From a virus: a DNA stretch of 32,267 bases. The position numbers and the translations under genes were made by a program. The stretch spans positions 1-32,267 of IMG/VR virus record IMGVR_UViG_3300044858_002116; one strand, given 5' to 3'. Under the pieces are notes generated by a model that worked only from the letters and a program-made list of their open reading frames with translations, did not search any database and was not told the origin of the DNA. How positions within the stretch are numbered: the first letter of the stretch is position 1; the number at the start of each line of letters is the position of its first letter. Below, piece by piece: positions 2,730 through 28,981 of this stretch.

Positions 2730-2805
2730 CGGGGAGTAGCTCAATGGTTAGAGCACTCGGCTTATATCCGAGCGGTTCATGGTTCAAGTCCATGCTCCCC
2801 GACCA
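2730..2805 (+). tRNA. tRNA-Ile, anticodon UAU
   Basis: A complete 76-base cloverleaf can be traced by eye: a seven-pair acceptor stem (CGGGGAG with CTCCCCG), T8 A9, D stem GCTC/GAGC, anticodon stem CTCGG/CCGAG, five-base variable loop CGGTT, T stem CATGG/CCATG with the TTCAAGT loop, discriminator A and an encoded CCA end. The anticodon loop CTTATAT gives UAU, which reads AUA (Ile). AUA codons occur repeatedly in the surrounding AT-richer genes, so the tRNA may supplement a rare host tRNA. It lies between a strong hairpin and a coding gene, so it is probably cut out of a longer transcript. Confidence 0.95.
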
Positions 2806-10484: not shown

Positions 10485-10847
10485 CTAACCCCTGTCTATA
10501 ATCTTTCTTGCGATTTCCAACCAGTTGTTTTCAAAGGTGAGACCCCTGTCGTCGACGTAAGCTGCGGCACCAGGCTTACCCTCGCCCACATATATGTCGT
10601 CGTAAGGGATGCCCCAGTCGCCTAGCATGCGCTCCATCTCATCGAGACGAGTTTGCCTGTCAGGCCACTGTTCCCATGCCCTTGCTGAGTGGATGAGTAT
10701 CTTGTACCCAGACTCTTGTAGCATGCTGAGCGCGTCAACGACACCGTTAGCAGGGACTATGGTGCCGAAGACGCGCACAGCTATCGTGTCATCGAAGTCG
10801 ACAGCTATCGTTCTGCTGAACTCTAGGTCGAGCTCGTTCTCGGTCAT
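10485..10847 (-). CDS. HAD-superfamily phosphatase-like protein
   Basis: The 120-residue protein carries the HAD nucleophile motif D17-F-D-D-T21, a Ser-containing motif II (HSAR) and motif III/IV as K-P-G-A-A-A-Y-V-D-D. Small phage proteins of this layout are HAD-like, sometimes polynucleotide-kinase-type 3'-phosphatases. The substrate is unknown. No cap domain is visible, in line with action on a nucleic acid end or macromolecule. The ATG at 10847 overlaps the exonuclease stop (ATGA) and lacks a strong Shine-Dalgarno, so translation is probably coupled. It sits between holin and C39 peptidase, an odd place for this function. Confidence 0.75.
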   Translation of the reverse strand: MTENELDLEFSRTIAVDFDDTIAVRVFGTIVPANGVVDALSMLQESGYKILIHSARAWEQWPDRQTRLDEMERMLGDWGIPYDDIYVGEGKPGAAAYVDDRGLTFENNWLEIARKIIDRG

Positions 10848-11787: not shown

Positions 11788-14210
11788 CGGCCCCTCTTGG
11801 TAGGGTTCATTGGGTTAAACTTTGGCAGCCCAGGATTGGCGTTAGCGTACGATGACGCCTTGTTAGCCAGGTAATTAAGGTGGTCTGCTGCGCCTCCCCT
11901 TCCTGGCTGTACGTTAGGCTTCTGCTCGGAGTCGACATACTGAACGTGGTAGAAGGCGCCTCCCCTTCCAGGCTGTATGTTGTACGGGTCGTTGAGGCCG
12001 CCAATATTCTGCGCCCCTCCTGGTCCATAGTAGCTTGTGCCAGGGACAAAGCCTGGTTTTTGTCCACCGCCACCGCCACCGCCACCGCCTCCACCGCCAC
12101 CTCCGCCGCCACCTCCACCGCCTGGCTGACCGCCCTTCTTCTTGGTGCTATCCTGAGGAACCCTCGTGTCTCTTCGCTCGGCGTACTTGGTCATAGGCAT
12201 GTCGAAGCTGATGCCAGGGCCCTTGAACTTGGAGGGCTTGACGAAGTCGAAAGAGGTTTCCTCGTGCCCATCCATGTGGGCAAGGTACTGCATCCCCCCG
12301 ATATTGTATGTCGTAGCTATAGAGTCGGCCCCATTAACGTCTACGTTCTTCCTGCGGACGATGAGTCTAACAGTCTCTCCAAGTCGTGGCCCTCCGGTTG
12401 CGCCGATGGGTGGAACAGTTCCGGAGCGCATCGTAACGGACAGTATCTTCGTATCCTCTACTGTCCCCCTGTCATTGAGTATCCCCTGTGCGTAGTTTGT
12501 TGCGGCCGCTGTGTTAATGAACCCAGGCTGAGCTTCGACATGGGGCAGAGCATAAGCCAATGTCCGGTCGCTCTTAACCACACCCTTTGTCCTGGCCCCA
12601 GACGGTGCGTCTGAGCTGGCACCCACAAGGAAGTCTGTGGTAGGGAGCACACGAACTGAGTTGGCTAGCACGCTGCGCTTGTTAATGAAGTTGTATGACT
12701 TGATCTGTCCCGGGTACACATAGGTGTGAGCGGGGCTGGCACTTACGTTGTGGTTGAATGTCAGCTGCCCCTCGGTACCTCCAGGAACACCGTAGTAGTT
12801 GAAGACAACCTTGTTTGGGTTGACACCGATTGTGCCACCCCTAGAGCTGGTTTCCAGGTCCGACACCTCACGGAAGAACTCAACAGGGTCCTGGCCAAAC
12901 GTGATGTAAGGGTGGAGGGTGGTGCTAGACCCTGAATCCACGTGGTTAACCGATGCCTGCCAAGCTATCAGAGCTTTTGGCAATGTGCCAACAGAGTCAG
13001 AGTAGTCTGCGGTCCGGTCGATTACCTTTGGGTAGATGTCAGCAACGATGTCATTGATGTTCTTGCGCTTGATCCCAGAGGTGGTCGCCGCAGTTGTGTA
13101 GTCTGACTTGTCACCCCACATACGAATCTGGAACACTCCTGGTGCAGTCTTAAGGATAGACGCCGGGGCGCCAGCTGCTGTTGCATTGCTCAGCAAGGCC
13201 CCTGTGGTCGCATCTACGTTGGTATAGTATGTGTTGTTGGTGTTGTCTGCATTCTCGTACCGGACAAAGTTAGCTACAACGAATGGATGCACGGCGAACT
13301 TATACGGAACCCCCTTGTAGATCACTGGTGAAGTTCTCCCAATTGCAGCTCCGCCAGGCGCTGTGCCGCTTGAGGTACCGTTCCCAACGTATGGCAGGTC
13401 TACCCGGAATGTGAGTACCACATCTCCAGCTGTCGGGGCTCCGCTTAGAAAGACCTCATTGTATGGTGCGGTATTTGGGAACGAACCTATCACGAGAGCA
13501 CATGCCCCACCAGGGTCTGAGTAAAGTATAAACCCGACAGCGGTTAGGGCCGGGGCACCGCCAACGATATGCCCAGCACCCTTGCTCAAAGTAACCTTGT
13601 TGGTGTTGGAGGTACGTCGAACGATGTAAAGGTTCCCCGCCACGCTGACGGTGCCAGTAGCATCGTCCTGTGTAACCGTGATCTGGTTCTTTGTACCCAC
13701 GGATGGGGCCCCTGCTGGGTTGCTGTAGGCGTTTATCTGCCCTGCTTCGGGGTCTCCTGCCCCTGCGGTTGGCACTAGGTCGGGCTCTTCCTTGTAGGTC
13801 TCGTCGTATTCCTGCGCTATCTGCACCACCGAGTCGGCCATGTCAATGGCCAGTGCCCCTGCGGGAGGGCCATCAAGGGGGGTGTAGTACCTAGATAGTA
13901 CGGTCATGTAGTCCACCCCGGAGATGACTACCTCCTGGTCGCTGGCATCGTAGTCGGATATGAACCCACCAGAGATGGTCTCGTACACGCCGGAATCATT
14001 CTGCCTTTGGATAGTGTACTGCTGTTCGAGCGGTACGATAAGCGGAAGGGCCGGGTGATCCACGGGCAGGGTGAAGAAAGCTGAGCCAGTATCGTTGGCG
14101 TACAGCTGGACACCGATATCCCTGGCGTCCTGTAGGACCGCAACAAGGTTTCCCTTTGCGAAGTCTACGCCAGTGGAGTCGTGGATTAGTACCTGGAACT
14201 TACGGCTCAA
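11784..14210 (-). CDS. Tail-tip (Tal-like) hub protein with poly-glycine C-terminus
   Basis: The 808-residue protein has a hub-like start (about 1-120: LIHDSTGV...QDARDIGVQLYANDTGSAFFTLP), a long beta-rich middle with adhesin-like stretches, and a later segment near GQDPVEFFREVSDLE. This overall layout matches tail-hub proteins of the Tal / ReqiPepy6 Gp37-like group. The C-terminus has 20 glycines in a row (12063-12122) and two QPGRGGA repeats. The start is TTG 14210, with GAGG upstream, overlapping the Dit stop as TTGA; the first ATG is about 120 codons later, so TTG is needed. It should bind the host at the virion tip. Confidence 0.75.
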   Translation of the reverse strand: MSRKFQVLIHDSTGVDFAKGNLVAVLQDARDIGVQLYANDTGSAFFTLPVDHPALPLIVPLEQQYTIQRQNDSGVYETISGGFISDYDASDQEVVISGVDYMTVLSRYYTPLDGPPAGALAIDMADSVVQIAQEYDETYKEEPDLVPTAGAGDPEAGQINAYSNPAGAPSVGTKNQITVTQDDATGTVSVAGNLYIVRRTSNTNKVTLSKGAGHIVGGAPALTAVGFILYSDPGGACALVIGSFPNTAPYNEVFLSGAPTAGDVVLTFRVDLPYVGNGTSSGTAPGGAAIGRTSPVIYKGVPYKFAVHPFVVANFVRYENADNTNNTYYTNVDATTGALLSNATAAGAPASILKTAPGVFQIRMWGDKSDYTTAATTSGIKRKNINDIVADIYPKVIDRTADYSDSVGTLPKALIAWQASVNHVDSGSSTTLHPYITFGQDPVEFFREVSDLETSSRGGTIGVNPNKVVFNYYGVPGGTEGQLTFNHNVSASPAHTYVYPGQIKSYNFINKRSVLANSVRVLPTTDFLVGASSDAPSGARTKGVVKSDRTLAYALPHVEAQPGFINTAAATNYAQGILNDRGTVEDTKILSVTMRSGTVPPIGATGGPRLGETVRLIVRRKNVDVNGADSIATTYNIGGMQYLAHMDGHEETSFDFVKPSKFKGPGISFDMPMTKYAERRDTRVPQDSTKKKGGQPGGGGGGGGGGGGGGGGGGGGQKPGFVPGTSYYGPGGAQNIGGLNDPYNIQPGRGGAFYHVQYVDSEQKPNVQPGRGGAADHLNYLANKASSYANANPGLPKFNPMNPTKRGR
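11891..11981. repeat. Imperfect 25-bp direct repeat in the hub gene
   Basis: Two 25-base segments, 11891-11915 and 11957-11981, differ at two positions and lie 66 bases apart. They encode the QPGRGGA repeat near the hub protein C-terminus. Such repeats could let the tip vary by slippage or recombination. Confidence 0.75.
12063..12122 (-). repeat. Twenty-codon poly-glycine tract in the tail hub
   Basis: Twenty consecutive glycine codons (GGC, GGT and GGA mixed) lie between a Lys-rich linker and a GTSYYGPGG-type tail segment. The synonymous codon mixture argues against simple triplet slippage and for selection on the protein. It probably forms a flexible spacer in the tail-tip protein. Confidence 0.9.
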
Positions 14211-15061
14211 AGTATAGCCTCGTTAATTGTGACGGTGCACACTACTCCAGCCCCACTCGTAACCGTAACTGTTGAAGTTCCTGGTGGAACGGCAAAGAAC
14301 TCGTACTCTGTTAGGTAGTTGGTTTGCGTCGACACGCAAGTCTTGAAGTCAACAGAGAAGTTAGACCCAAACCCTCCAGCCTTGGTGAATGCAACGCTGT
14401 CTGTGCCGAGCTCTACTCGGAGTGGGCTCACGGTAGAGGTGCTGCTCCACGCGACAGTAGGCCAGGCAATAGTCTTCCCGTCGTTGACGACTGAGATGGT
14501 TCCGGACCCAGTGCGGGTGAACACCCTTGAGGTTTCGAAGTACTTGTATGGGTCCTCTGCCATGAGAACGACCCGTACCCGCACGGCGTATCCACGGTCA
14601 GCGTCCCCTGCGGAAGCTCCTGCCTCGGTCACGAACCTAGGTAGGGACATTGGTCGAACCTTCATGTACAAGCTGTAAGATCCAGAGGTCTTAGGCTGGC
14701 TGAAAGACAGCTTCCTAAACCCATCCTCAGCGAAAGCCTGGCCGGTTGCAAAGGACGGCCGTGGCTGTAGTGCGTAGTTCAGCTCCGTGATCTTGTCCCA
14801 GAAGTCCCCGTAGGTACTGCCATACACGCCCACTATCATAGAGATCTGTCGTGCCCCAAGGTATGCGTCGTAGCTGTCGATGCCGTCCACCTGTGGAGTA
14901 TCCTCAGAGAAAGCAGTTACGTTAACATCGGAGAAGTCTACGCTTTCAATGTTGTACCCTGAAACAGGTGAAGACCCAACCGCGTTGGGGTCTCGTACTC
15001 CGTTTAGGTCCAAGGCGGACTGCCCTGGACGCTCGATTGTTACTGCCTGTGATAGATCCAT
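14207..15061 (-). CDS. Dit-like distal tail protein
   Basis: The 284-residue protein has an N-terminal region (about 1-110) with a GARQISMIVGVYGSTYGDFWDKI-type stretch and a later AEDPYKYFE (about 170-178), typical of siphovirus distal tail (Dit) proteins, followed by an immunoglobulin-like beta-rich C-terminus. Dit links the tail or head to the host-recognition hub. The ATG at 15061 sits directly after the connector stop. The gene order connector, Dit, Tal with no tube gene is unusual. Confidence 0.75.
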   Translation of the reverse strand: MDLSQAVTIERPGQSALDLNGVRDPNAVGSSPVSGYNIESVDFSDVNVTAFSEDTPQVDGIDSYDAYLGARQISMIVGVYGSTYGDFWDKITELNYALQPRPSFATGQAFAEDGFRKLSFSQPKTSGSYSLYMKVRPMSLPRFVTEAGASAGDADRGYAVRVRVVLMAEDPYKYFETSRVFTRTGSGTISVVNDGKTIAWPTVAWSSTSTVSPLRVELGTDSVAFTKAGGFGSNFSVDFKTCVSTQTNYLTEYEFFAVPPGTSTVTVTSGAGVVCTVTINEAIL

Positions 15062-15765: not shown

Positions 15766-16779
15766 TTAGAGCGTCGTTGCGGTCGACTCAATGCGGAGGT
15801 AGCGTGGCTGGCCAGTCGAGGTGTTTGAACCATCGAACTCTCCAGTCGTTCCCTCACCACGGAGGATCGCGCCGAAGCGCATCTTGAAGCCAAGCGTTGC
15901 AACCTGGGCGATTGGATCGCTGTGGTCGCCGCCCGGAGCCACGAAGTAGCTCTGAAGCGTCTGGCTGTCGCCAACGATGTAGGCATCTGGCCCGAAGAGG
16001 AACGTCGAGTAGACGTCCGTCGAGCTTGCGCCTGCGCCGGTGAAGACCTTTGCGTTCGGTGAAACCATGAAGCGGACACCAGCGTACGCGCCGATCTCTC
16101 CGTTGAGGAGGTCGAGCGACTTGGTGTACTTCGTGGCCTCAAGGAAGCCGTTCGCGCTGGTATCCGTCAAGAGGTCGAACTCGACCGCAGGATGGATGAT
16201 TGCGCGATAGAATCCGTCAGCGAACGTTGGAACGTTTGCTGCCTTGAGCTTTGCAACAGCCTTCTTGATCGATAGACCAGTAAGTACGTCGCTGTTGGCG
16301 TTGCCGCCGAGTGTAAGTCGGGTAGTAGCGTCACCACCATACATAACGTTGGTGCCTTGTGCTACTACGTCACGGATGATGGTGTCCATCGACTCGGTTG
16401 CCGCTCGAGCAAGTCGCTCGGAAGCAATCGAGATCAGATCGTGCGGGCTGTCGAGCTGCGCAAGGTCTGAAATCTTGAGAACCTTACCGTACTGCTTAGG
16501 AATGAACGACTCGGTCGTAACCGTGAGGTCATACTCAGCAGGGGCGCCTGCCTCGGTAAGGGTGTCCGCCACGCCAAGCGGCGTGAGGTCTGGGTAGCGC
16601 GCATAGCGAATCTCGTTGCTGCCCTTCTGGAAGCGACCCGAGGTATAGTTCCCCGGCATTGCATGCACCAGTCGGTTGCGCAGGTTCTCCTGAGCCTGCG
16701 AAGCTACGAGCTCCGTGATGAGCGCAGAATAAGCGTTAGAGCTGTTCGTGTCGAGCAGCGCACGCGTCTGCGTAGCCAT
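15766..16779 (-). CDS. Major capsid protein, N4-gp56 family
   Basis: The 337-residue protein matches the N4-gp56 major capsid family in its sequence landmarks: NEIRYARYPDLTPLG near 55-70, the ISDLAQLDSPHDLI stretch, an ATESMDTIIRD helix and the conserved end segment with GDSQTLQSYF and GGDHSDPIAQVATLGFKM (about 270-300). It forms the icosahedral head shell with HK97 fold. ATG 16779 has AAGGAG at seven-base spacing. It follows the scaffold-like gene. The length is normal for the family. Confidence 0.92.
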   Translation of the reverse strand: MATQTRALLDTNSSNAYSALITELVASQAQENLRNRLVHAMPGNYTSGRFQKGSNEIRYARYPDLTPLGVADTLTEAGAPAEYDLTVTTESFIPKQYGKVLKISDLAQLDSPHDLISIASERLARAATESMDTIIRDVVAQGTNVMYGGDATTRLTLGGNANSDVLTGLSIKKAVAKLKAANVPTFADGFYRAIIHPAVEFDLLTDTSANGFLEATKYTKSLDLLNGEIGAYAGVRFMVSPNAKVFTGAGASSTDVYSTFLFGPDAYIVGDSQTLQSYFVAPGGDHSDPIAQVATLGFKMRFGAILRGEGTTGEFDGSNTSTGQPRYLRIESTATTL

Positions 16780-16794
16780 TTATTGACTCCTTTT

Positions 16795-17319
16795 TTACTC
16801 GCTCCAAGGATTGCCGAGGGACGCTATGTCCCTAACAATCTCATCGGAGCTTCTCTTTCCTGCCTTAGCCGTAGTGGCCTTGGCAGGCTTGTTGGGATCC
16901 ACGAACGTTTCCTCAGACTTCCCCACACCCTTGCGAACCATATCCTCAAAGGCCCGTGCCCGATCTTCATCTGTAAGATCTTTGCTTGATTCGGCCCAGG
17001 TTGTGTAGTTTGGGAACTCCTTAGACAAACGCTCACGCTTCTCGGAAGCCCGAGTAGCGTTAAGTTCTTGCTCCAGTGCGGCGATTTTCCGCTGAGCTTT
17101 TTCAAACTCAGAAAGGCTGGCCTCCTCCATCTGAAGCTTCCACTGCACGACCTTGTCGTGCTCTGCCTTAATCTCATCCAACTGCTTTTTAACAGTCGTC
17201 AGAGCTTGGTCCTTGCCAGCAAGGCGCTTCTTCCAAGTGGTGATGTCGTTCTCATCCTGAGTGGCAGCCACCTCCTGCGACTCGGTCTGTTCGTTCAACA
17301 CGACTTCTCCGTCAGTCAC
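16795..17319 (-). CDS. Scaffold-like capsid assembly protein
   Basis: The 174-residue protein is acidic at the N-terminus (about 1-28), then has a long charged coiled-coil region (about 29-100) and a polar, lysine-containing C-terminus. Such acidic-to-coiled proteins directly upstream of the capsid gene are typical phage scaffolds. GTG 17319 has GGAGG six bases upstream and overlaps the giant gene's stop (GTGA). No protease motif is visible. Confidence 0.8.
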   Translation of the reverse strand: MTDGEVVLNEQTESQEVAATQDENDITTWKKRLAGKDQALTTVKKQLDEIKAEHDKVVQWKLQMEEASLSEFEKAQRKIAALEQELNATRASEKRERLSKEFPNYTTWAESSKDLTDEDRARAFEDMVRKGVGKSEETFVDPNKPAKATTAKAGKRSSDEIVRDIASLGNPWSE

Positions 17320-20300
17320 CTGTTACCTCCATATTTTTCGAAGTCAATCTCTCCCGTTGCACGCTGGGAGATTGGCTCCGGATTGTTTCCACCCGAAATC
17401 TGGGTGACGATCTGGTCCGCAGCGCCAGCAAGGTTTTCACCTGTGGCGAGAGGACCGAACCTAACAAGCGATCCAAGGATGTCTCGACCGACGAAATCGC
17501 CGATCCCATAATCCTTGTCTGCGCCCGCCAGGCTTCTGGCAACGTTTCTCAGGTATGCCGGAGGGACAGCTGTGATGTCCCACGGTACGCCCGGGAATAG
17601 CTGAGTGACCATGAAGGCCACCTCATCCATATTTTCCAGATTGTTCCTGAGCGTATAGTCAGTCTCAATCTGATGCTCTACGTAATCTCGTACGTGTATG
17701 TACGACTGGTACCCTGCTCCAGGTGCGTACGTTCCGAACGGCTTCTTAAATAGGAACTCAATCATTTCTGGTAGGATCTTCTTAAACATGTAGCTGTATG
17801 GGTAGAACCCTAGGAATGGATGGTTGATGCTCCTCTCGAACAAGCTTCGCTCCGGGTTGAAGTATGTAGTCCTGTTCGCCTGCTTGAGTGCCTTCTCGTA
17901 TACGTATCGGTATGCCTTGAAAAGCTCCTCCTCCACTCCATGCTTTGTCATGAGCGTGTAGTTGGCTGAGTCTAGTGCTTCAAGAAGCTTGACGTCATCT
18001 GATATTGCCTGTCGGGATAGTCGTCGGATTTCTGCAGTAAGATCCTGCGCATTACCGCTCCCGACTGCGGCCTTGGCGTCTCTTACTATGCGCTGAAGGG
18101 TAGACGACACGGTAGCTATGTCGCCTCCGTATCCTCCTCCGAGGGCAAGTGCCTCTGCGATTCTAGACCCTTCGTACGTGATCTCACCGCCAACAGCGAA
18201 TGCTGTGTCTTGGATCATGATCTCGGCGGAAAGGCGCCTGAGGTCTGCATCGTTCCTAATCTCTTGAACCTTCCTTAAGGACTGGTCCAGCTTGTCGTAT
18301 GCCTCGTTGAACTTAGTTGTCCTAAGTGCAGACACTGTTCCGGAACGTCGGATCTCGTCATCTGCAAGCCCAAGCTGTGCCTTGAGCTGCGCGAACTCCT
18401 CGTCTACCATCGACATGTCGTAGTTGGAATCGCTCATTCTCTGGTATGCAACGTCTAGGTTATCTCCAGCCTGCTTAGGCCTGGTTAGGTACTCACGTCG
18501 AACAAGGCTTGGCGCAACCTCATCTCCAGCTGAACTCTTACCCCCGAAGATAGAGTACCTAACATCAGCGTACACCTGGCCGGTACGATCTGGAATAGCA
18601 TTGAACCCGATACCAGCAGGGCGTGCGGCGTCGATGTCAGACAGAACTCTTTCTTGGTTGAATAGTCGTCGTCGGTAGTCTGCGTAGCGAACAAATAGTG
18701 TCCGTGAGTCAGATGTACCGTATAGGGAAACTAGTGAGTTGTACAGAGACGGGTCGTTTTTCTGAAGCTCCTGCGCAAACTGCTTGGAGGCAATGTCCAT
18801 TGCAAGTGCGTCCTTAGCAGCATCTTTCCTTTCGACAAGAACGTCTCCTGCTTCTGCCTTGAACACTCTTCCGGCACCAGCTTTGGCAGAAGATAGTTTC
18901 CTCTTTACAGCATCGATGATCCCGGTCGCCTCTCCCACCTGCCAGTTCCCAGTTAGGGCACGCTCGAGGGCCCTTTCACGGAAGACAGTCAGGAAGTTAA
19001 CGTTGTCTATTAAAGCATGTGTTTGAGGGGCAACGTTGGCTAGGTCTCGGATCTCTCCAGCCGTAGCTCGCAATACCTGGCCGTCCTTGGTAATTGCTGA
19101 TATTACTTCTCGGTCAACACCTCGTGCCTGGTTAAGAGTAGACGACTCAAAGAACTCTTGTACCCAGTACAGGGGGTTGTTCTTGAATCGGAATTGAGGA
19201 TACATTCTGTCGGTTATATTTGCGATAGATGGAAGCCACCTCTTCGCAGCTCCGCTTGCGTACTGGCTGTATCCTACAACTCTAGAGTCACCCTGGAATG
19301 AGTACATCATTGCGTCAACTGCCTTGAACTCTCCGCCACCGGACGCTGTAGATGCCTTCCACGAATCTTTAAATCGGTCGTACCCGCCGAATCCTTCTTG
19401 TAGGTTGAAGGCTTTTTCGAAAAGCAAGTCCATTGTTTCCCTGTTGAGACCTCGTGCGCTTACTCCCTGGGCTATGGCTTCCTTGACAATCTCGTCCATT
19501 ACCCTATCTACATGAGCTGAGCTCACCCCGCCTCGAGCAAGATAGCTCGCCATTCGGTTTTTGATATTGCTAGTAACGGCAGAGTTCCCTATTGGTGAGA
19601 AGACGCTGCCGATGATGTGCTGAAGCCTACTTGCAGTGTATCTAGTGCTGTACTGAACGTCCTTCAAGTAAGGGCTGGTCATATCAATAAACGGTCGAAC
19701 CTGGCTTTGCATAATAAGCGCCTTGGTTTGGCCGTCAATGTTAGGGTTCTCAATAATCTTCAAGACCCTGTGATAGTTTTGCTTTGGAGCACGAGCAATT
19801 GTGTAGCGCGTATCGTTCATTACGCTGAGTATGGATGGGTCCATGCCCTGAGAAGCTACGATCCTAGCTAGGTCTTGCATGTCCTCTGGCCCTAGTGGGT
19901 TGATGGCAAATCCATTTTCTATAGCATCGTTCACAAACCTAAAGATTCTCTCAGGGTTTTCAGCGTACGAGAACGTAGAGCCTAGCTCTTCGGACATGTC
20001 AAGCGTTGCCCTTGACCACGCCTTCTTAACGTCAAGTAGGTTCTCTGCCTTCTTCATCTCTTCTAGGACGTCGTTAAGGGCGTCTACCGAGTAGCTGTCT
20101 CCCCTGGCCTTCGCGTCTGGCATCAGCTCATTCTTGATCTTCGAGCGGATTGCGGCAACGTCAGAAGCACTACCGATGTACTCTTTAACCAGAGGCTGAC
20201 CAGCTGCGTACCTGGCTTCTGCTGTCGGAAGGAATGAGTCCCGACCGCCACCTTCTATCTTCTGTATTGCCTCGTACAGGCTCTTCATTGTCCTGGCAGA

Positions 20301-22397
20301 GCTTAGGAACAGCATCCCTTTTCTTCGAACTACCTGGATCCTACCTACGTTATTGGCTGCCTTCCGGATCTGTCGGAACCCTTCCTCACCGTATTTGGAT
20401 ATGAGGGAATCTGAAACCTTAGGGTCCATTACCTTTGCCGTCACTGGTGCGATGGCTTCGTTAATCTGTGAGGCCCACTTGTTTGCCGATTCGAACCCTG
20501 CCATATCGATAAGAAGGAAGTCTCGTGCAACCATTCGTCGGGTGTCGGCTTCTGTTGCGCCCTTCGTTACAAGTCCCCCCCTGCGGACTAGCTCTCCTTG
20601 GTCATCAAAGTATTTACCAAAGATTTTTTCGAAAGCCTCGTCTGATGCGGATTGACGGACCGGTGTCCATGTGTCCCCGGCAGCGGCTGACATCGATCTG
20701 GTCCTTGCAAGGTACTCTGTCTTGAGGGCCTGCTTGTTAATAATTCTAGGTACCAGCTTATAGACCTGTCGGTCGATCTCTGCGATAACTTGTCGTGACA
20801 TTTCGTCTGGGCCTAGGTCTAGAAGTAGGTCGTGAACCCTTCGCTCTACGCCACCCTCCTGCCTTGAGATCTGCTTTAGCGCTGTGATAACGTACTCGCT
20901 CTCAACCATTTCTGTAAGAGCCTGAGTTGACACGTCGCTAGCACGTCCAGTGTTGGCGAGGTTGGCCCTGTCGTTAACGTTGGAAATAATCCTTATGCGG
21001 TCCTTGAGCTTAATTACTCCGTCAACATTGTCTGATATTCCTAGAACCGCGACCGTACCACCCTGCTCCCTGGCCATGACGATCATCTGACCTGCGATGT
21101 TGTCGATGTCCTTGTCGGCAACCTGGCCAAGATTTAGCTCTTTCACCGAGGACATGTAGGTGTTCACGGTAGAATCCGCAATGACCTTTGCCTTGGCCGA
21201 CTCAGGCCTGGCGATGAGCCTTCCGATTGCCATCACTGGGAAGTTTGATGCCCCACGGCCCATGAACTCGTGAACCAATGGACGAAGCTCTGGTGCTACA
21301 GTAGATGCGTGGATGTCCATGATTTCGTTTGCTCGGTATCCGCCTAGGGCTCTCATGATAGTATTCGTTGAAGCTGGGACAAGAGCACCAGCTACAGCCC
21401 TCAGGCCTTGCTTGCTTCGATTGCTAACCCCAACCATTCCACGGTACATACCGATTCCGAATCCATTGTTAATGGCGTTTACAACGTTATTAGCTGATTC
21501 CGCATCCTCGATTGTTTTAGTCAGGGCTACCACTTCGCTGCTTGCTGGGTTTGCGCCCTTTGAAATTAGCTCGTCGATCTTAGTCCTTGAGGTTCGGATA
21601 AGCTCTTCGTTCTGTGAACCTACCCGCAGTCGCTCAGTAAGATTCATACCGTAACCATCGGCCGGCATGCCAGTCTTCTTATCTATTCCCTTCTCAAGCC
21701 TAAGAAGAATTTTGTCTGCGGTGCCGAGGTCGTCCATTTTCCCAGCTGTCTCGAATGCCTTCTCTGCGCCTCGTACTGCAGATCGTCCCGCCTTGTAGGC
21801 AGCAACAGCGCCGACCACTCCCCCGATTGGTCCAGCTACTGCGGTTCCCCCAAGAAGTCCAGCTGCGGCGCTAAGGGGCTTGAGTGCACTTATCTTGCCC
21901 AGGGCTAGAGGGGTAAAGTTGAGCGGGTCAAGGAGTATCTGGAATGCTAGGTTTGCTTCCTTGCTGTTGGAGAAAGCGCGCTGCGAGTTAACCATGTAAT
22001 CCGCAACTTCGTCTGCGTTTCTACCTGATGCAATCATGTTTCGTATGTCGTCTGGTAGCCCTCCCTGGTCCAGCATCCTAAGCCTTGCAGCTGCCTGCTG
22101 CACAGCCCAGCTCGGTACGTTAAGAAGGTCAAGTCCTTTTCCTATTGCCCACCCAACCGGTGAGTCTGCAACCATTTTAAAGGCAGGCTCAACAATTGGT
22201 AGCTTGGTGGCGAACTGTGCACCACGGCTAACTACCTCTGTTACTGCTCCACCAAACTCCTTTGCCATCTTTTCAGCAGGGTTCAGGTTCATGTCCTGAG
22301 GCTTGCCGCCAATGTCAAGGGTTACGCCAAGGTCTTTACCCTTTAGCTTTTCTTCCTGCTCGGAAGGAGCGCCTGGATCTCTATAGATAAATGGCAT
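17316..22397 (-). CDS. Giant virion-associated protein, 1693 aa (candidate internal/ejection protein)
   Basis: This is the largest gene in the window. The protein is mostly alpha-helical and charged, has a Gly/Ala-rich hydrophobic segment at about 175-202 (LSAAAGLLGGTAVAGPIGG), a segment with RMYPQFRFKNNPLYW and a C-terminal segment HPFLGFYPYSYMFKKILPE (about 1526-1544). I see no protease, RNA polymerase (T7/N4 motifs), kinase or lytic transglycosylase signature. Its place between the 943-aa protein and scaffold, and its size, fit an internal or ejection protein carried in the head. A tape measure is a less likely alternative because no tube genes are present. It starts at ATG 22397 (TAATG overlap). 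Confidence 0.6.
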   Translation of the reverse strand: MPFIYRDPGAPSEQEEKLKGKDLGVTLDIGGKPQDMNLNPAEKMAKEFGGAVTEVVSRGAQFATKLPIVEPAFKMVADSPVGWAIGKGLDLLNVPSWAVQQAAARLRMLDQGGLPDDIRNMIASGRNADEVADYMVNSQRAFSNSKEANLAFQILLDPLNFTPLALGKISALKPLSAAAGLLGGTAVAGPIGGVVGAVAAYKAGRSAVRGAEKAFETAGKMDDLGTADKILLRLEKGIDKKTGMPADGYGMNLTERLRVGSQNEELIRTSRTKIDELISKGANPASSEVVALTKTIEDAESANNVVNAINNGFGIGMYRGMVGVSNRSKQGLRAVAGALVPASTNTIMRALGGYRANEIMDIHASTVAPELRPLVHEFMGRGASNFPVMAIGRLIARPESAKAKVIADSTVNTYMSSVKELNLGQVADKDIDNIAGQMIVMAREQGGTVAVLGISDNVDGVIKLKDRIRIISNVNDRANLANTGRASDVSTQALTEMVESEYVITALKQISRQEGGVERRVHDLLLDLGPDEMSRQVIAEIDRQVYKLVPRIINKQALKTEYLARTRSMSAAAGDTWTPVRQSASDEAFEKIFGKYFDDQGELVRRGGLVTKGATEADTRRMVARDFLLIDMAGFESANKWASQINEAIAPVTAKVMDPKVSDSLISKYGEEGFRQIRKAANNVGRIQVVRRKGMLFLSSARTMKSLYEAIQKIEGGGRDSFLPTAEARYAAGQPLVKEYIGSASDVAAIRSKIKNELMPDAKARGDSYSVDALNDVLEEMKKAENLLDVKKAWSRATLDMSEELGSTFSYAENPERIFRFVNDAIENGFAINPLGPEDMQDLARIVASQGMDPSILSVMNDTRYTIARAPKQNYHRVLKIIENPNIDGQTKALIMQSQVRPFIDMTSPYLKDVQYSTRYTASRLQHIIGSVFSPIGNSAVTSNIKNRMASYLARGGVSSAHVDRVMDEIVKEAIAQGVSARGLNRETMDLLFEKAFNLQEGFGGYDRFKDSWKASTASGGGEFKAVDAMMYSFQGDSRVVGYSQYASGAAKRWLPSIANITDRMYPQFRFKNNPLYWVQEFFESSTLNQARGVDREVISAITKDGQVLRATAGEIRDLANVAPQTHALIDNVNFLTVFRERALERALTGNWQVGEATGIIDAVKRKLSSAKAGAGRVFKAEAGDVLVERKDAAKDALAMDIASKQFAQELQKNDPSLYNSLVSLYGTSDSRTLFVRYADYRRRLFNQERVLSDIDAARPAGIGFNAIPDRTGQVYADVRYSIFGGKSSAGDEVAPSLVRREYLTRPKQAGDNLDVAYQRMSDSNYDMSMVDEEFAQLKAQLGLADDEIRRSGTVSALRTTKFNEAYDKLDQSLRKVQEIRNDADLRRLSAEIMIQDTAFAVGGEITYEGSRIAEALALGGGYGGDIATVSSTLQRIVRDAKAAVGSGNAQDLTAEIRRLSRQAISDDVKLLEALDSANYTLMTKHGVEEELFKAYRYVYEKALKQANRTTYFNPERSLFERSINHPFLGFYPYSYMFKKILPEMIEFLFKKPFGTYAPGAGYQSYIHVRDYVEHQIETDYTLRNNLENMDEVAFMVTQLFPGVPWDITAVPPAYLRNVARSLAGADKDYGIGDFVGRDILGSLVRFGPLATGENLAGAADQIVTQISGGNNPEPISQRATGEIDFEKYGGNR

Positions 22398-25228
22398 TAG
22401 CTCTGGACTCTCGCTCGTTGACCATAGCCAGTCCCTGCGATGCCCTGTGTCGCGGTGGCTGTCCCGGTAACCGCAGCCGCTGTAGGCCTAACGGTTACTG
22501 TCCTAGGGGTTACAGTCTTGATCGTTGCCGCCGTAAGCTTTCCACCCGCGCCGATTGGCTTGATCTCAGGAAGCTCTCGCTGCCTAATAGGATCAGGCTT
22601 CTTCTGGGCCATCTCTGGCTTGTTGCGGAATGCGCTTGCCAGGAATGGGCTTACACCAGTGTCTGCTTGCGTTCTAAGGTACGGAGACTCTGGGGCAGAG
22701 GTGTCCTTTGATGGTGGAGTATAAGCTCCGTACACGGACGTCCCTGTCACCACATTCTTATTAGTATCCGGCCTTGCCTGTGCTGGGCGTATGTCTGAGA
22801 AGTTCCTTTGGATGTTTGCCAAAACCTCTGGGTTCTGAAGCATCATCTGACGAATGGTTGTCTGGGACAATATCCCAGCCGTGTCTCCGACCACAAGCTT
22901 GATACCTGCCTCTTGGATGTCTTCCATGTCAAACGCTTCCTTGCCCTTGTTGCCAGCAATCCTTGTTGCCTCAGCCACGATGGAGTTCCTGTCTGTGAAC
23001 GCAGACTGAAGGGTTGACTTAACCATAGAGTCAGATCCTACAATTCCGTAGAACCTGTAGTTATCCACGCTCTTTGATGCAGCCCCTGAAACAATCAACT
23101 TACCAAAGTTGTCGCTGGTTGGGTCTGTGTTTGTTTGCCTGAAGATAGAGAATGACGAGTTCGGGTTAAACATATTGAGCCAAGCACCGCTAGAGTTAGC
23201 GGTTTTCCCTGGGTCTGTGAAGGATACCTTTACAGAAGTAGCTGCGTCCCCTGGACTTGTTAGTCCAAGTGAGTCTAGCTCTACGCCTCTCTCCCGTGAG
23301 TACTGCTCGAACTGGTCGAACGGGATTTGGAACGTCCTTGTCCTTGTCCCGGTTCCGTCGTCCATTGTCCCCTGAACTGTGACCATTGCGTCGGTCTGGC
23401 CTACGTTGTCCAGAGACCCCAGGTTTCCAGGGAGCCTGTAAACCCTTACCTGTAACCCTCCGAATATTCCTCGGTCTGCTGCGGTACCCTGGTCGCCCTG
23501 CGTAACCTCTAATGGCTTAACGTAAGTAATCGACTGCTTGCCGTTTATAGTGTTTACGGATGGCATGATCTCCGGAGTTATCCCTGCTGGGTTTCTGTCT
23601 CCCCAGTCGCTAACCTTGACCGCACCGTTCGGTTCTGCTATAATAATGGACCCAGCCTTTACCGCAGCCTTGCCCCATGCCATGTCGATAAGGGCTCCTA
23701 TCGCTGCAGAAGGTCGCAGTGTGGCCGAAGGGCTGTACTGCTGCTCCATCAAAGTATTCATTCTTCCTATGGCATCATTGTAGTCTCTCTGGTTTAGCTT
23801 CGCGTCAGTGAAGCCATCTTCGAACTCTGTCAGCTCAACGTATCCGCTACCGTCTTGGTCGAAATCCTGGAATATTGGGTCCAGGAGTTCTAGGGATATT
23901 CTCTTTTGTCCTAGGTCGGAAAGCCAGCTGTAATCTTCGGCTCCTGGTATGTCCTTAAGTTCTTGGCCTAGCTTGTTTAGCTCTGCCTCTACAGCATCTG
24001 GGTGTCCACCGATAAATGTCCTAACCCCTGAGTCGTCGGTTTGGAACACCGCTCCGGCGCCCTTCAGGCCCGTCTCCAGTTGCTCCATGACGTTAGATCC
24101 CCTGCCAGCGTTGAACTCAATACCGCTAGCTTTTACAAAGATGTTCCCATTAGCTACGAGGCCTTGGACTTTTCCACGTAGAAGCTTGGCGTTTGAGTCA
24201 CCTGCTGCTCCAAACCCTGCACTAAGAATTCCGTTGAGAGACGTGTTCATCTCTGACACCGCGCTTCCAAACAGGGTTTCCATCCCATCCCCAGCCGCAC
24301 CAAGAACGGCCTCATACCCGCCAGGGATATCTCCGCTCTTTTGGAGAGCGAGCTGCTTGATCGCTGAGTAGTAGGGTGTGTTCGCATCTTCGCCTGAAAG
24401 GCTAGCGAATATGTTATTGAGTGTGTCGTTGAAGATACCGTCCCCGTTCGCAACGTAGTTGTCGATGATCGCCTTCGCGGCCTTGTCGACCTTTCCCACA
24501 GAGTTGTCAATCTGCTTCTCGTATCCTTCAAGGGCCCGGTTCTGTCCGTCCACCTTGGCGTTCTTTACAGCCTGTGCATGGGCCTTCTCGATAGATAGGT
24601 ATGCGTCGCTGCTCTTGGTAAGCCCTGACTCAAGCGCTGATTCCATTTGGCCCTTAAGCCACTTGGCGTATGAGCCGTAGCTAATCTCCTCGCGGTCTAG
24701 CGCCGAAGACTTACCGTCGTTCTCAACGTTGAACCCAGCCACGAATACAGCTCCCTTGAGCTTGTCTGCCTGAACTGTGTTTCCGTCCGAAAGCATGTCT
24801 TGGATCTCTTCGTCTGCCCAGTTGCGTACGTCAACAAGCTCAACCTCGGCGATCCCCTTGTTGGCAAAGTTAGACCCAAGAAGTCCGAAATCAATCTTCC
24901 TTCCCTTGGTCATCGCGTCGATAACCAGGTCTTGGATGTCTGTCCGGGACTCCTCCTCAAAGGTCTGGAGCTTAGACAGGATTGTCTGATACTCCGTAGA
25001 ACCCGATGGGAAGCCAGATAGCATTGACCTGTAGTAATCTATCACGTACTCTGAGTCAACGTTTTGTCCGTTAAACTGTGTGACATAAGTACCGGCTTTC
25101 ATGTTTGCCCGGTAGGCTTCCTCAATCAGTCGGAGCTCCTTGTCCATCTGCTCCTTCTGGATCTGATACACAAGCATGGTCAGGTTCTGGGTTGTACCAG
25201 CCCTACCGAATCGTCCTCGTCGTGCCAT
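22397..25228 (-). CDS. Large virion-associated protein with EF-hand, 943 aa
   Basis: The 943-residue protein begins with a basic stretch (MARRGRFGRA), is helical for about 450 residues, and then has a canonical 12-residue EF-hand loop D457-Q-D-G-S-G-Y-V-E-L-T-E468, flanked by helix-forming sequence (23825-23860 on the minus strand). The C-terminus is low complexity, rich in Pro, Thr and Ala (after about 850). Position between portal and giant protein suggests a structural or internal virion role. A calcium-binding loop could regulate assembly or ejection. No enzyme motif is seen. The start overlaps the portal stop (TAATG). Confidence 0.6.
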   Translation of the reverse strand: MARRGRFGRAGTTQNLTMLVYQIQKEQMDKELRLIEEAYRANMKAGTYVTQFNGQNVDSEYVIDYYRSMLSGFPSGSTEYQTILSKLQTFEEESRTDIQDLVIDAMTKGRKIDFGLLGSNFANKGIAEVELVDVRNWADEEIQDMLSDGNTVQADKLKGAVFVAGFNVENDGKSSALDREEISYGSYAKWLKGQMESALESGLTKSSDAYLSIEKAHAQAVKNAKVDGQNRALEGYEKQIDNSVGKVDKAAKAIIDNYVANGDGIFNDTLNNIFASLSGEDANTPYYSAIKQLALQKSGDIPGGYEAVLGAAGDGMETLFGSAVSEMNTSLNGILSAGFGAAGDSNAKLLRGKVQGLVANGNIFVKASGIEFNAGRGSNVMEQLETGLKGAGAVFQTDDSGVRTFIGGHPDAVEAELNKLGQELKDIPGAEDYSWLSDLGQKRISLELLDPIFQDFDQDGSGYVELTEFEDGFTDAKLNQRDYNDAIGRMNTLMEQQYSPSATLRPSAAIGALIDMAWGKAAVKAGSIIIAEPNGAVKVSDWGDRNPAGITPEIMPSVNTINGKQSITYVKPLEVTQGDQGTAADRGIFGGLQVRVYRLPGNLGSLDNVGQTDAMVTVQGTMDDGTGTRTRTFQIPFDQFEQYSRERGVELDSLGLTSPGDAATSVKVSFTDPGKTANSSGAWLNMFNPNSSFSIFRQTNTDPTSDNFGKLIVSGAASKSVDNYRFYGIVGSDSMVKSTLQSAFTDRNSIVAEATRIAGNKGKEAFDMEDIQEAGIKLVVGDTAGILSQTTIRQMMLQNPEVLANIQRNFSDIRPAQARPDTNKNVVTGTSVYGAYTPPSKDTSAPESPYLRTQADTGVSPFLASAFRNKPEMAQKKPDPIRQRELPEIKPIGAGGKLTAATIKTVTPRTVTVRPTAAAVTGTATATQGIAGTGYGQRARVQS

Positions 25229-27486
25229 TATTCATTACCTCCAAGGAGCGCTGCCAGTTCGGCTGCCCCGGGCTGTGCGTTTTCTGGTAGTGCCTCAGGT
25301 GGCGGGTTGCCCTGCTCGCTAGGAGAGTTGAGCATCTCGCTTCCTGGGGCAGGCGGGTTCAGGCTTGCCATAGCCTCAAGGGCGCTGGCTCGTCCTGCCT
25401 CCGACTGCTGCATGGCCTGTTGAGGGGCCTGTTGCTGCATTTGGTTAAACATCTGGATCAGTGTGGCCATCGTCTGTACTGCAGCAGGGTTGAGAGTTGC
25501 GTCTGTCTGCTCGTCTCGGATCAGGTCCTTCTCTCCCTCTGGGTCGGTTACACCCATTCGGTCCATGGCACGCTCAGAGCTCCAAAGCCTGTTTTGTACC
25601 ATGTTGATAGCTGTCTGTGCAAGCTCGATTGTGTCACGTGGTGTGAGCTCAGGCGGGGTAATCGCAATCGAGTACTCACCGTCAAGGATATTGGACACTG
25701 CCTTATCCTTGATTTCCCACATTCGTGCACACACTTCCCATACGTCCTGGATCCACGCGTAGAGGATCTTTCGCTTCGGAGAAATCCGTGCCTCGTAGTT
25801 TGCCATGAGCTGCGCAATTGCCCGGCTAGATCCGAGCACGCTCGACGGGGCGAGCCCGAGAAGCAAGTCGTTAAGCCCTGACACCACTGCCAGCTCTCGG
25901 TCGATTCGCTTGTTATAGTCTTCGACCTGGAACTGAGGGATGAACGGGTTGATGGATTCAATGCGGTTTCCTGCCCCAGGGGTAGCGACCTGGTTTGGCT
26001 TCGGGATAGCGTTGGCAGGAACCTCATCCGGAGCTTCAGCGCCAACCAGCTGCCACATCTGTCCTCCGACAACAGAGTGGATCATTTGTGCTTGGGCGGT
26101 TATCTTCTCGTCCTTTTCTCGGAGCAACTGCTCAATGTCATAGAGCTCTGGCTTTCCGTAAGGGCTGCCAGGGATCATGCTGTTCCGGAGCATGATGTAA
26201 GGAATAACTCCTTCGAGCTCAGGATGTTCAGTTTTCTTAACAATTGTGTTGCCGACGATGATGACGTTGCAGACCAGCGGTGGCTTGCCAGGAGTTGTCG
26301 GGTGCTTGTACCAGTAGTCCATGACCTCGATCTTCATCTGGTCGTACGCCGTCTGGTACCGTACCGGATCTCGGTGGTAGCTGTTCAGGTAGATGCTGGC
26401 AATAGGGTCGTCGTGCGTGCTGGCCGACGTGTATGGGAACCACTGCTCGCCATCACGTACCGGGATTACGTTGATGCCGTAGTCTTCCATCGCAGCCTGA
26501 GGCGATAGCCCGTAGCTGTAGATTGCCCAGTCTACTCGTGTATAGTCAGAGGTTCCGTACCCAAGGTACAGGTTTTCCGGCGTGTCCACGATCTGGACGC
26601 GTGGCATCTTCTTGATTGGGTCCCAATATACCTTGCCAGCCGTCGTACCGTATAGGGACTTTAGGAGAGCGGCCTCTTCGAGGCGCAGGTCCATGTCGTT
26701 AGCATCCCACCATGCGTAGAAGAGACGCTCGCGGCGTGAGGCCTGGTCTCTCTCTTCGGTGGTTGGGCCAGTTGGCACATAGTTAACCACAGGTGTGACT
26801 GCCTGCAGAGATGCAGGGATCTGAACGTACGACGCGTGCACGTTGACCGATACGTGAGATCTACCTGACAGACGTGCGCTCGGGTCCTCAGCCCAGTGGT
26901 CAGCACCACCTAGTGTGAATGTCTGAGGGTGGAAGTAGTGATCGTATCGTCGGTACAGAGCCCGCATTCGGTTCTGCTCTGGCTCAACCAGCTGCTTCTT
27001 GTTCATGGCCTCGGCCATTACGTTGTAGTATTCGTTCTCTTCAGCAACCTCTCCGACAGCATTCAAACGCTGCTTCTCCATGCTGAGAGCCCTGCGCTGC
27101 AAAGCGTTAAGAGAAGGCATCTTCTCGTTAGGCATGTTGATCTTGGTGGATCGTACTCGCCCACCCGAGACGATCATGTTGGAGACAGTCTTAATCCCCT
27201 TGCCGGCTGGCTTGGCGGAACGGTTCTTAACCGCGCTAGGAACAGGCTGTCGCTTACCTCGTCGGGTAGTCGACGCCGCCTCGAGCGAAGCCTTTACGGG
27301 CTTTCCAGTAGACTTAATGTTTGTCTGCTCAGCGCCACGTATGTCCCTGCGGGCACGAGCCATAGCGTCCTTGATACCAGCAATTATGTCTGGTGTCACT
27401 ACACTAGGATCGGTCGTGATCATTGATGGAACTTCCTTGCCGTTTACAAACGAGCCAGAAAGCTTCTTTAGCTTGTCCTTAGGCAT
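25228..27486 (-). CDS. Portal protein
   Basis: The 752-residue protein lies directly after the large terminase. Its sequence has a central portal-like region (about 250-560) with EERDQASRRERLFYAWWDA, YGTTAGKVYWDP and a helical LAPSSVLGSSRAIAQLMANYEARI stretch, followed by an alpha-helical C-terminus and a Gln/Pro-rich tail. It should form the dodecameric ring at the packaging vertex. The N-terminus is basic and extended (about 1-110). It starts inside the terminase stop by eight bases (ATGCCTAA). Confidence 0.85.
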   Translation of the reverse strand: MPKDKLKKLSGSFVNGKEVPSMITTDPSVVTPDIIAGIKDAMARARRDIRGAEQTNIKSTGKPVKASLEAASTTRRGKRQPVPSAVKNRSAKPAGKGIKTVSNMIVSGGRVRSTKINMPNEKMPSLNALQRRALSMEKQRLNAVGEVAEENEYYNVMAEAMNKKQLVEPEQNRMRALYRRYDHYFHPQTFTLGGADHWAEDPSARLSGRSHVSVNVHASYVQIPASLQAVTPVVNYVPTGPTTEERDQASRRERLFYAWWDANDMDLRLEEAALLKSLYGTTAGKVYWDPIKKMPRVQIVDTPENLYLGYGTSDYTRVDWAIYSYGLSPQAAMEDYGINVIPVRDGEQWFPYTSASTHDDPIASIYLNSYHRDPVRYQTAYDQMKIEVMDYWYKHPTTPGKPPLVCNVIIVGNTIVKKTEHPELEGVIPYIMLRNSMIPGSPYGKPELYDIEQLLREKDEKITAQAQMIHSVVGGQMWQLVGAEAPDEVPANAIPKPNQVATPGAGNRIESINPFIPQFQVEDYNKRIDRELAVVSGLNDLLLGLAPSSVLGSSRAIAQLMANYEARISPKRKILYAWIQDVWEVCARMWEIKDKAVSNILDGEYSIAITPPELTPRDTIELAQTAINMVQNRLWSSERAMDRMGVTDPEGEKDLIRDEQTDATLNPAAVQTMATLIQMFNQMQQQAPQQAMQQSEAGRASALEAMASLNPPAPGSEMLNSPSEQGNPPPEALPENAQPGAAELAALLGGNE

Positions 27487-28981
27487 TCAATATCTCCCCA
27501 AAGTAGCTGAACACGGGCTTCTCGACCGGGTTCGATGGATTTCTGGTCGCGTGTCTTACAGCCAGTGCAAGCGCCATGACGGCGTCTGTCTCTAGCTTCT
27601 TATCGTCCAGCTTGTACCCAAGCAGCTGGCGTCGGACTTGCATCCATACGCCTTTGCGAGGGAGCTTCAGCTGGCCACGGTCAATCACCGCCTTTAGGTC
27701 ACCCAGCAGCTCGAGCTTCTTAGCTCGGGTTCCGCCAAAGTCATAGTCCCTAAGTGGCTTTATGATGCTGAACTCTTGTCGGAACAGCTTGCCGCCAAAC
27801 CCCGTGGAGTCCACGATGGTCGTGCAGTATGATCCTTCCTGGCCATATAGTAAGTGCCCCTCCCGCACCATATTTATTACCGCAGGTATAGTCTGCTTGC
27901 CGGTCTTGCGCTTGCATCGCACCCCTGCCAAAAACTCTCGCTCTGTGTAGTCAATCGTAATTGCCCACGTGGCGTCTGATGAGATGCCTGGGTCTACTCC
28001 CTGCGCGTAACGTCGCGTCTTGACTGGCTGAGTTTCTTCGTCGAGTTCTACGAATGAATTATCCACCATGTCTGAATTGAAGTAGGAGTCTCTTGACTCG
28101 ATAAAGAACCCGTCGATGTTTTGAGGAACCAAGTATTCTGCCTGCTGCCTCAGGATAGACTCAAAGGTGTCTGAGTTGAGTCCGTATCCTACATTGTCTC
28201 TGGTCGAAAGTCGGAAGCTAAAGAACTGTTCATCTCGGTTTGGGTTGGTTGGGTTTCCCAGTTCCCACAAGTCAGAGTAGTCGTTGATTCCTTCGGTCGG
28301 GGTACCGATGAAGTGCAGTTGTCCCCCGGTTGACAGGCGTCGAAGGTTTAGGACCTCCTGATAGATCATTAGCAAGTGGGGCTCGAAAGCTGCCTCGTCA
28401 AAGGAGATTCCATTCATGTCCTTGCCCAGCAGTGCCTTTGCCTTGTCCTGCGTTGTGCGGAAGTGGATGTTCGCACCACCGAAAACCGGGTGAACTCGTA
28501 CCCATAGGTACTCTCCACGGTACTTCTTGTCGAAGATGTAGACCGGTCCAATCTCCTTGGTGATGGGGCATCCACGTCCCTTCTGGGCCGGGTGGGATCC
28601 TTGGAATAGCATCGACAGTTCTCGGTGAACTAGCTCTGCTGTCTCCTGCTGAATGCCGATGTGGTACCACTCGTACGGCTCATTAGACCAGCGCTCAGCG
28701 TCTTCCTTGCTTCCCTGTACAGGGACTCGGAGTCCGAGCTTGTAGGTGGCTGAGTGGAGAATCCCCACTGCCATCCCTAGAGTTTTACCGGCTCGGTTTC
28801 CAGCAGAGCACACAGTTGTCAGGTACTTAGGTCGGTATCCTGATTCATCCCGTGCTGCAATCCCCTCAAGCCAGGCAAGCTGGCCTGGGTTCAACTCGAT
28901 GCCAAGCCAGCGAGAAGCAAAGAAGCCGATGTCGACTCTTCCCCTCGCCAGGTCCTTAGCGATCTCGTTGGTAAGGTTCAC
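27479..28981 (-). CDS. terL: Terminase large subunit
   Basis: The 500-residue protein has Walker A SAGNRAGKT (59-67), Walker B GISFDE (191-196) with the catalytic glutamate, the coupling region FIGTP near 224-228, and a nuclease domain with D330 (QGVDPG), D391 (VDSTG) and D466 (ETDAVMALALA). It would power DNA packaging through the portal and cut the concatemer. GTG 28981 overlaps the preceding stop (TAGTG). Its length fits the family. It is flanked by small basic proteins on one side and the portal on the other. Confidence 0.95.
   Translation of the reverse strand: MNLTNEIAKDLARGRVDIGFFASRWLGIELNPGQLAWLEGIAARDESGYRPKYLTTVCSAGNRAGKTLGMAVGILHSATYKLGLRVPVQGSKEDAERWSNEPYEWYHIGIQQETAELVHRELSMLFQGSHPAQKGRGCPITKEIGPVYIFDKKYRGEYLWVRVHPVFGGANIHFRTTQDKAKALLGKDMNGISFDEAAFEPHLLMIYQEVLNLRRLSTGGQLHFIGTPTEGINDYSDLWELGNPTNPNRDEQFFSFRLSTRDNVGYGLNSDTFESILRQQAEYLVPQNIDGFFIESRDSYFNSDMVDNSFVELDEETQPVKTRRYAQGVDPGISSDATWAITIDYTEREFLAGVRCKRKTGKQTIPAVINMVREGHLLYGQEGSYCTTIVDSTGFGGKLFRQEFSIIKPLRDYDFGGTRAKKLELLGDLKAVIDRGQLKLPRKGVWMQVRRQLLGYKLDDKKLETDAVMALALAVRHATRNPSNPVEKPVFSYFGEILNA

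Follow-up and report, generated by a model that had tools for sequence, protein, structure and literature searches.

The ejection proteins of T7 (gp14, gp15 and gp16) and P22 (gp7, gp20 and gp16) are large, helical products of late structural genes, with several encoded per phage, and their genes follow the tail genes in order from small to large. T7 gp15 and gp16 and all three P22 proteins are free of cysteine. According to section 4 of PMC8954989, known podovirus ejection proteins also diverge past detection. The N4-like phages eject a giant virion RNA polymerase as part of a set of three ejection proteins; in those parts of PMC3915230 that treat the polymerases, they are reported to be cysteine-free, which is explained by injection through the tail. 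Other giants come from less familiar systems. Bbp10 of BPP-1-type phages (PHROG 9880) is nearly cysteine-free, and its gene lies behind genes for an internal virion protein and a transglycosylase. Akoni, an actinobacterial podovirus of Microbacterium cluster EK, encodes a single cysteine-free protein of 4487 aa, gp31, directly upstream of its portal gene, and the protein is termed likely virion associated in the authors' account excerpted from PMC7302621. Finally, the polyvalent proteins of Iyer et al. are characterized, in the relevant portion of PMC5512222, by at least two effector domains of disparate kinds; one of these is often a zincin, a hallmark of the class.

The locus compared here with these systems occupies a window of 32,267 nt, the whole stretch analysed, which is an IMG/VR virus record lacking terminal repeats. 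This 32.3-kb window is probably a fragment of a ~42-kb genome, an estimate based on the relative G001, which has 42,512 nt and a 123-nt terminal repeat. Its late structural block, on the minus strand, runs from TerL and portal through proteins of 943 aa (P0002) and 1693 aa (P0001) to a 174-aa putative scaffold, the capsid, a 214-aa protein, a Dit-like protein and an 808-aa protein (Table 1). The two large ORFs were thus found between portal and scaffold-capsid as originally predicted, and each overlaps the neighbouring genes by a few bases. The 214-aa protein has no family match in Pfam or PHROGs, and from its sequence style and position it is a putative head-tail connector. The 808-aa putative hub carries a long glycine run close to its C-terminus. 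After the late block come replication and recombination genes, assigned with Pfam and PHROGs as a DnaB-type helicase, an Erf-like protein, and Cas4-type and other exonucleases.

Table 1. Positions of the features discussed (window coordinates unless a locus is named)
Feature	Position	Strand	Evidence or remark
Terminase large subunit (TerL)	27479..28981	-	PHROG E 4e-15
Portal protein	25228..27486	-	PHROG portal families, best E 6e-6; Gordonia phage portals matched
943-aa giant P0002, candidate ejected internal virion protein	22397..25228	-	cysteine-free
Conserved N-terminal motif of P0002, residues 1-30	25139..25228	-	R3, F7 and N15 identical in all aligned sequences
EF-hand-like loop of P0002, residues 452-474	23807..23875	-	Pfam EF-hand_1 E 1.5e-4, below gathering cut-off
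1693-aa giant P0001, candidate ejected internal virion protein	17316..22397	-	cysteine-free
Gly/Ala-rich hydrophobic segment of P0001, residues ~175-202	21792..21875	-	hydropathy scan
Aromatic C-terminal motif of P0001, residues ~1517-1570, best-conserved stretch	17688..17849	-	alignment and conservation profile
Putative scaffold, 174 aa	16795..17319	-	position and weak coiled-coil-like matches
Major capsid protein	15766..16779	-	PHROG 1357, E 3e-47
Putative head-tail connector, 214 aa	15062..15706	-	sequence style and position
Dit-like distal tail protein	14207..15061	-	PHROG Dit E 2e-10; profile match SPP1 gp19.1 (2x8k) E 0.0036
Putative tail hub, 808 aa	11784..14210	-	weak Sipho_Gp37-like Pfam match, E 0.0048, below cut-off
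Third giant, G001	L219:166-7443	+	2425 aa, cysteine-free, upstream of TerL
Third giant, G009	L224:9657-15188	+	1831 aa from first ATG, cysteine-free beyond first ATG
Zincin-bearing long versions of P0001	L114:15465-21902; L112:14229-20687; L116:9470-15823; L124:10514-16951		

Loci of relatives, gathered by TerL and portal scans of IMG/VR, keep TerL and portal followed by proteins of ~930 aa and ~1500-2150 aa and then by scaffold and capsid, in this order, down to 14-18% protein identity. Profile searches found 136 ORFs like P0001, of which 51 are unique and complete (1488-2153 aa; lowest identity to the window 17-18%), and 126 like P0002, of which 53 are unique and complete (871-956 aa; lowest identity 14%). 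Homologous ORFs in identical gene order in many IMG/VR contigs place the giants beyond chance. Because order and homologues are kept to such low identity, the pair is a standard part of this phage group, and the idea that it had been inserted between portal and scaffold was wrong.

The set usually extends to a third giant, giving proteins of about 1.8-2.4, 0.9 and 1.5-2.1 thousand residues, which together amount to about 4,500-5,200 residues and take up about one third of a genome of ~42 kb. Members of the third family (1831-2425 aa) are equally cysteine-poor and have a Gly/Ala hydrophobic C-terminal stretch that varies among them. They lie upstream of TerL in 45 of the 47 loci whose sequence on that side exceeds 5.5 kb, a count of loci and not genomes, since the loci overlap and several come from one contig; a single-sequence search finds the protein in 3 of 7 records. 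The two loci without it, L112 and L114, both belong to the zincin-bearing clade. The window extends just 3.3 kb upstream of TerL. In G009, a relative that matches 7 kb of the window at 94-98% identity, the third giant is found about 1-1.2 kb past the point matching the window's first bases, just beyond its left end. The original prediction of two giants was therefore accurate for the pair and incomplete for the set. A reading of this upstream giant as a tail fibre was dropped in view of its composition, the hydrophobic stretch at its C-terminus and its lack of cysteine. In one locus a collagen-repeat protein (L072:6109-8037, plus strand; Pfam E 3e-34), probably a fibre, lies between the third giant and TerL.

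The three families share a near-absence of cysteine. There are 2 cysteines in 87,282 aa of the 51 P0001-family sequences, none in 49,104 aa of the 53 P0002-family sequences, and 1 in 68,393 aa of the third family (50 unique ORFs, many truncated). Other proteins of the same phages contain, per 1000 aa, 9.5 (TerL), 2.85 (portal), 1.37 (capsid), 2.67 (connector), 3.39 (Dit) and 3.16 (808-aa protein) cysteines; this comparison and the family count come from different searches, which gave 52 and 53 unique P0002 homologues, respectively. If cysteine were as frequent as in the capsid protein, the P0001 and P0002 families would be expected to have 120 and 68 of them, a calculation that ignores shared ancestry. 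In the window itself, the two giants have no cysteine in 2,636 residues, whereas the remaining seven proteins of the late structural block have 10 in 3,069 (Fisher P 0.0025; exact probabilities for these counts take residues as independent).

Known ejection proteins and comparable phage giants served as controls and behave alike. T7 gp15 and gp16 have no cysteine in 2,065 aa, and P22 gp7, gp20 and gp16 none in 1,309 aa. BPP-1 bbp12, bbp11 and bbp10 have a single one in 3,003 aa, located in bbp10, while other BPP-1-type giants have 0-3, with three in that of vir555. Akoni gp31 has none in the 3,814 residues read. In phages whose ejection proteins are proven or annotated, the portal and nozzle proteins contain 5-11 cysteines per 1000. 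The signature is not unique to ejection proteins, since scaffolds show it too: the putative scaffold of this group has no cysteine in 11,853 aa (67 of 67 homologues), nor do a few small proteins, and it is likewise missing from T7 gp9, P22 gp8, the gp26 needle of P22 and some proteins of the Akoni tail region. Conversely, T7 gp14 has one cysteine, and one to three occur in several of the small internal proteins. Both window giants thus show a cysteine avoidance that is derived here as a mark of injected proteins and, in the part of the literature covered, was found in print only for the N4-like virion polymerases. Their near-absence of cysteine, as in proteins known to be injected, makes it probable that the giants are carried in the head and delivered to the host, and we read the pattern as a strong, though not specific, sign that they leave the head.

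Neither giant matches an enzyme family in Pfam or PHROGs, in agreement with the lack of a recognised enzyme motif noted at first. The larger protein has the predicted Gly/Ala hydrophobic segment, with a hydropathy peak at residues 181-199, and the predicted aromatic segment near its C-terminus, which is the most conserved part of the family. The Gly/Ala segment is short, and its hydrophobicity is weak in some homologues. Residues 177-239 give a weak hhalign match (probability 44-48%) to the third giant's similar segment, a likeness that may be compositional. P0002 has no hydrophobic segment above the threshold applied in the hydropathy scan. Its EF-hand-like loop, missed in the original prediction, matches EF-hand_1 in 5 of 34 homologues and is invisible in distant alignment rows, being limited to the nearer homologues in the window's clade. 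Several P0001-family versions of 1866-1867 aa (L087, L103, L107, L092, L150 and L152) have ~154 extra residues past window residue 223.

Profile and fold comparisons, the check proposed for both giants, brought out nothing resembling a known ejection protein. P0001, P0002, TerL and the 808-aa protein had no match in direct searches of 50,697 phage records, nor did the divergent P0001 homologues of L079 and L205, and PDB sequence searches gave matches at chance level only. The model of P0001 residues 494-1693 is mostly helical (pLDDT 70.8, pTM 0.57), and that of P0002 is helical, then beta, with a disordered C-terminus (pLDDT 75.4, pTM 0.60). Foldseek found no PDB match at E <= 0.001 for either model. 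The best VIA Z scores, 9.0 for P0001 (a talin-type helix bundle) and 6.7 for P0002, fall in a range common among helical models.

The window giants resemble the T7 and P22 proteins in size, predicted helicity, late structural gene context, number per phage and cysteine content. They differ in position, between portal and scaffold, and in having no profile similarity to these proteins and no identified small gp14-like partner or peptidoglycan hydrolase domain. They resemble the N4-like set, compared here by its published description, and show no polymerase match. Akoni gp31 shares with them its size, lack of cysteine and proximity to the portal gene, but it is a single protein upstream of the portal with no profile similarity to either giant; no similarity was found to Akoni tail proteins gp35-37. 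The relation to Bbp10 is more intricate. The zincin-like HExxH segment of four long versions of P0001 (2118-2153 aa; L112, L114, L116 and L124), which are true family members since they have 627 aligned columns in common with the rest, matches BPP-1-type giants in 22 phage records (PHROG 9880, E down to 9e-16; hhalign profile probability 98.8%). Window P0001 lacks this segment, and the family compared with Bbp10 over its whole length gives an hhalign probability of 0.3%; the best PHROG match of P0001 is another family. Membership of P0001 in the bbp10-type family was accordingly rejected, and its gene neighbourhood also differs from that of Bbp10.

The zincin-like segment bears on the possibility that the giants belong to the polyvalent effectors and, as injected proteins of several domains, have the host as their target and form no channel. 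A hallmark of that class, as given in the portion of PMC5512222 cited above, is present in the long versions only, as their zincin segment. A ~180-aa domain of the third giant (residues 389-571 in G001) resembles a small protein that Delftia phage RG-2014 (Schitoviridae) encodes as a gene of its own close to the left end of its genome. However, P0001 has no HExxH, neither window giant contains an effector domain recognised by Pfam or PHROGs, and the RG-2014-like domain belongs to a protein outside the window. Effector and channel roles may also coexist. A purely effector role is possible but rather doubtful, and a host-acting role for some parts of the giants is possible.

Tape measure proteins are likewise ejected and helical, and P0001 could be such a protein of a long-tailed phage, displaced from its usual position. 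It has a weak match to PHROG 167 (tape measure; E 0.0035), as do 3 of 27 homologues, and the Dit-like and hub-like genes are siphovirus-type. Yet the P0001 gene precedes scaffold and capsid instead of lying after the major tail protein and chaperones and before Dit. No match to a major tail protein or tail chaperone was seen in 20 window ORFs or in 10 ORFs scanned from G001, a complete relative, and the adjacent capsid, connector and Dit genes leave no space for a tube gene. This reading, which also fails to account for how long the other two giants are, is improbable, and the original observation that a tape measure is absent holds for the structural genes scanned. Equally improbable is a place among inner-head or core proteins retained by the virion, or a scaffold-like role in assembly only: the giants adjoin a scaffold gene whose product is also cysteine-free, but they are far bigger than known scaffolds, occur as three separate proteins and, in P0001, include a hydrophobic Gly/Ala segment.

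P0001 and P0002 are thus quite probably internal virion proteins that are kept in the head close to the portal and enter the host cell or its envelope before the DNA or together with it. Position beside the portal, lack of cysteine, the third giant and the absence of a tape measure or major tail protein from the structural genes scanned favour the ejection part of the original prediction, and delivery into the host appears well supported by this indirect, sequence-based evidence. The channel part gained nothing from the profile and fold comparisons; a DNA-delivery channel is a plausible guess from size, helical content and the Gly/Ala segment. The giants would best be described as a divergent podovirus-type ejection set and not filed as homologues of a known one. 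The phage is probably short-tailed. Packaged near the portal, the giants would pass through it unfolded or extended, which would account for cysteine avoidance, and leave by a short tail of connector, Dit-like and hub proteins. They may then assemble part of a conduit across the envelope, in which the Gly/Ala segments of P0001 and of the third giant would enter the membrane. We suggest only tentatively that this is an ejectosome of three cysteine-free giants, detectably unlike the T7, P22, N4 and BPP-1 systems, in short-tailed phages with a siphovirus-type Dit/hub tip and possibly actinobacterial hosts.

This reading offers a proposed function and a testable signature for three orphan families that fill about one third of the genome in a common uncultured phage group. 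Cysteine avoidance, in print for one injected phage protein family, is suggested here for several unrelated ones and could help detect ejection proteins where sequence comparison fails. The phi29-type podoviruses of Gram-positive hosts are said in section 4 of PMC8954989 to be without ejection proteins, which makes it informative to learn the host of the present group. No relative turned up in two scans of 84,980 species genomes; weak hints come from the portal match to Gordonia phages and from capsid matches mostly to Streptomyces and Bacillus phages. Elsewhere in the window are a tRNA-Ile gene with a TAT anticodon (2730-2805, plus strand) and a 120-aa ORF (10485-10847, minus strand) that matches PHROG 1238, named phosphoheptose isomerase (E 1.7e-16).
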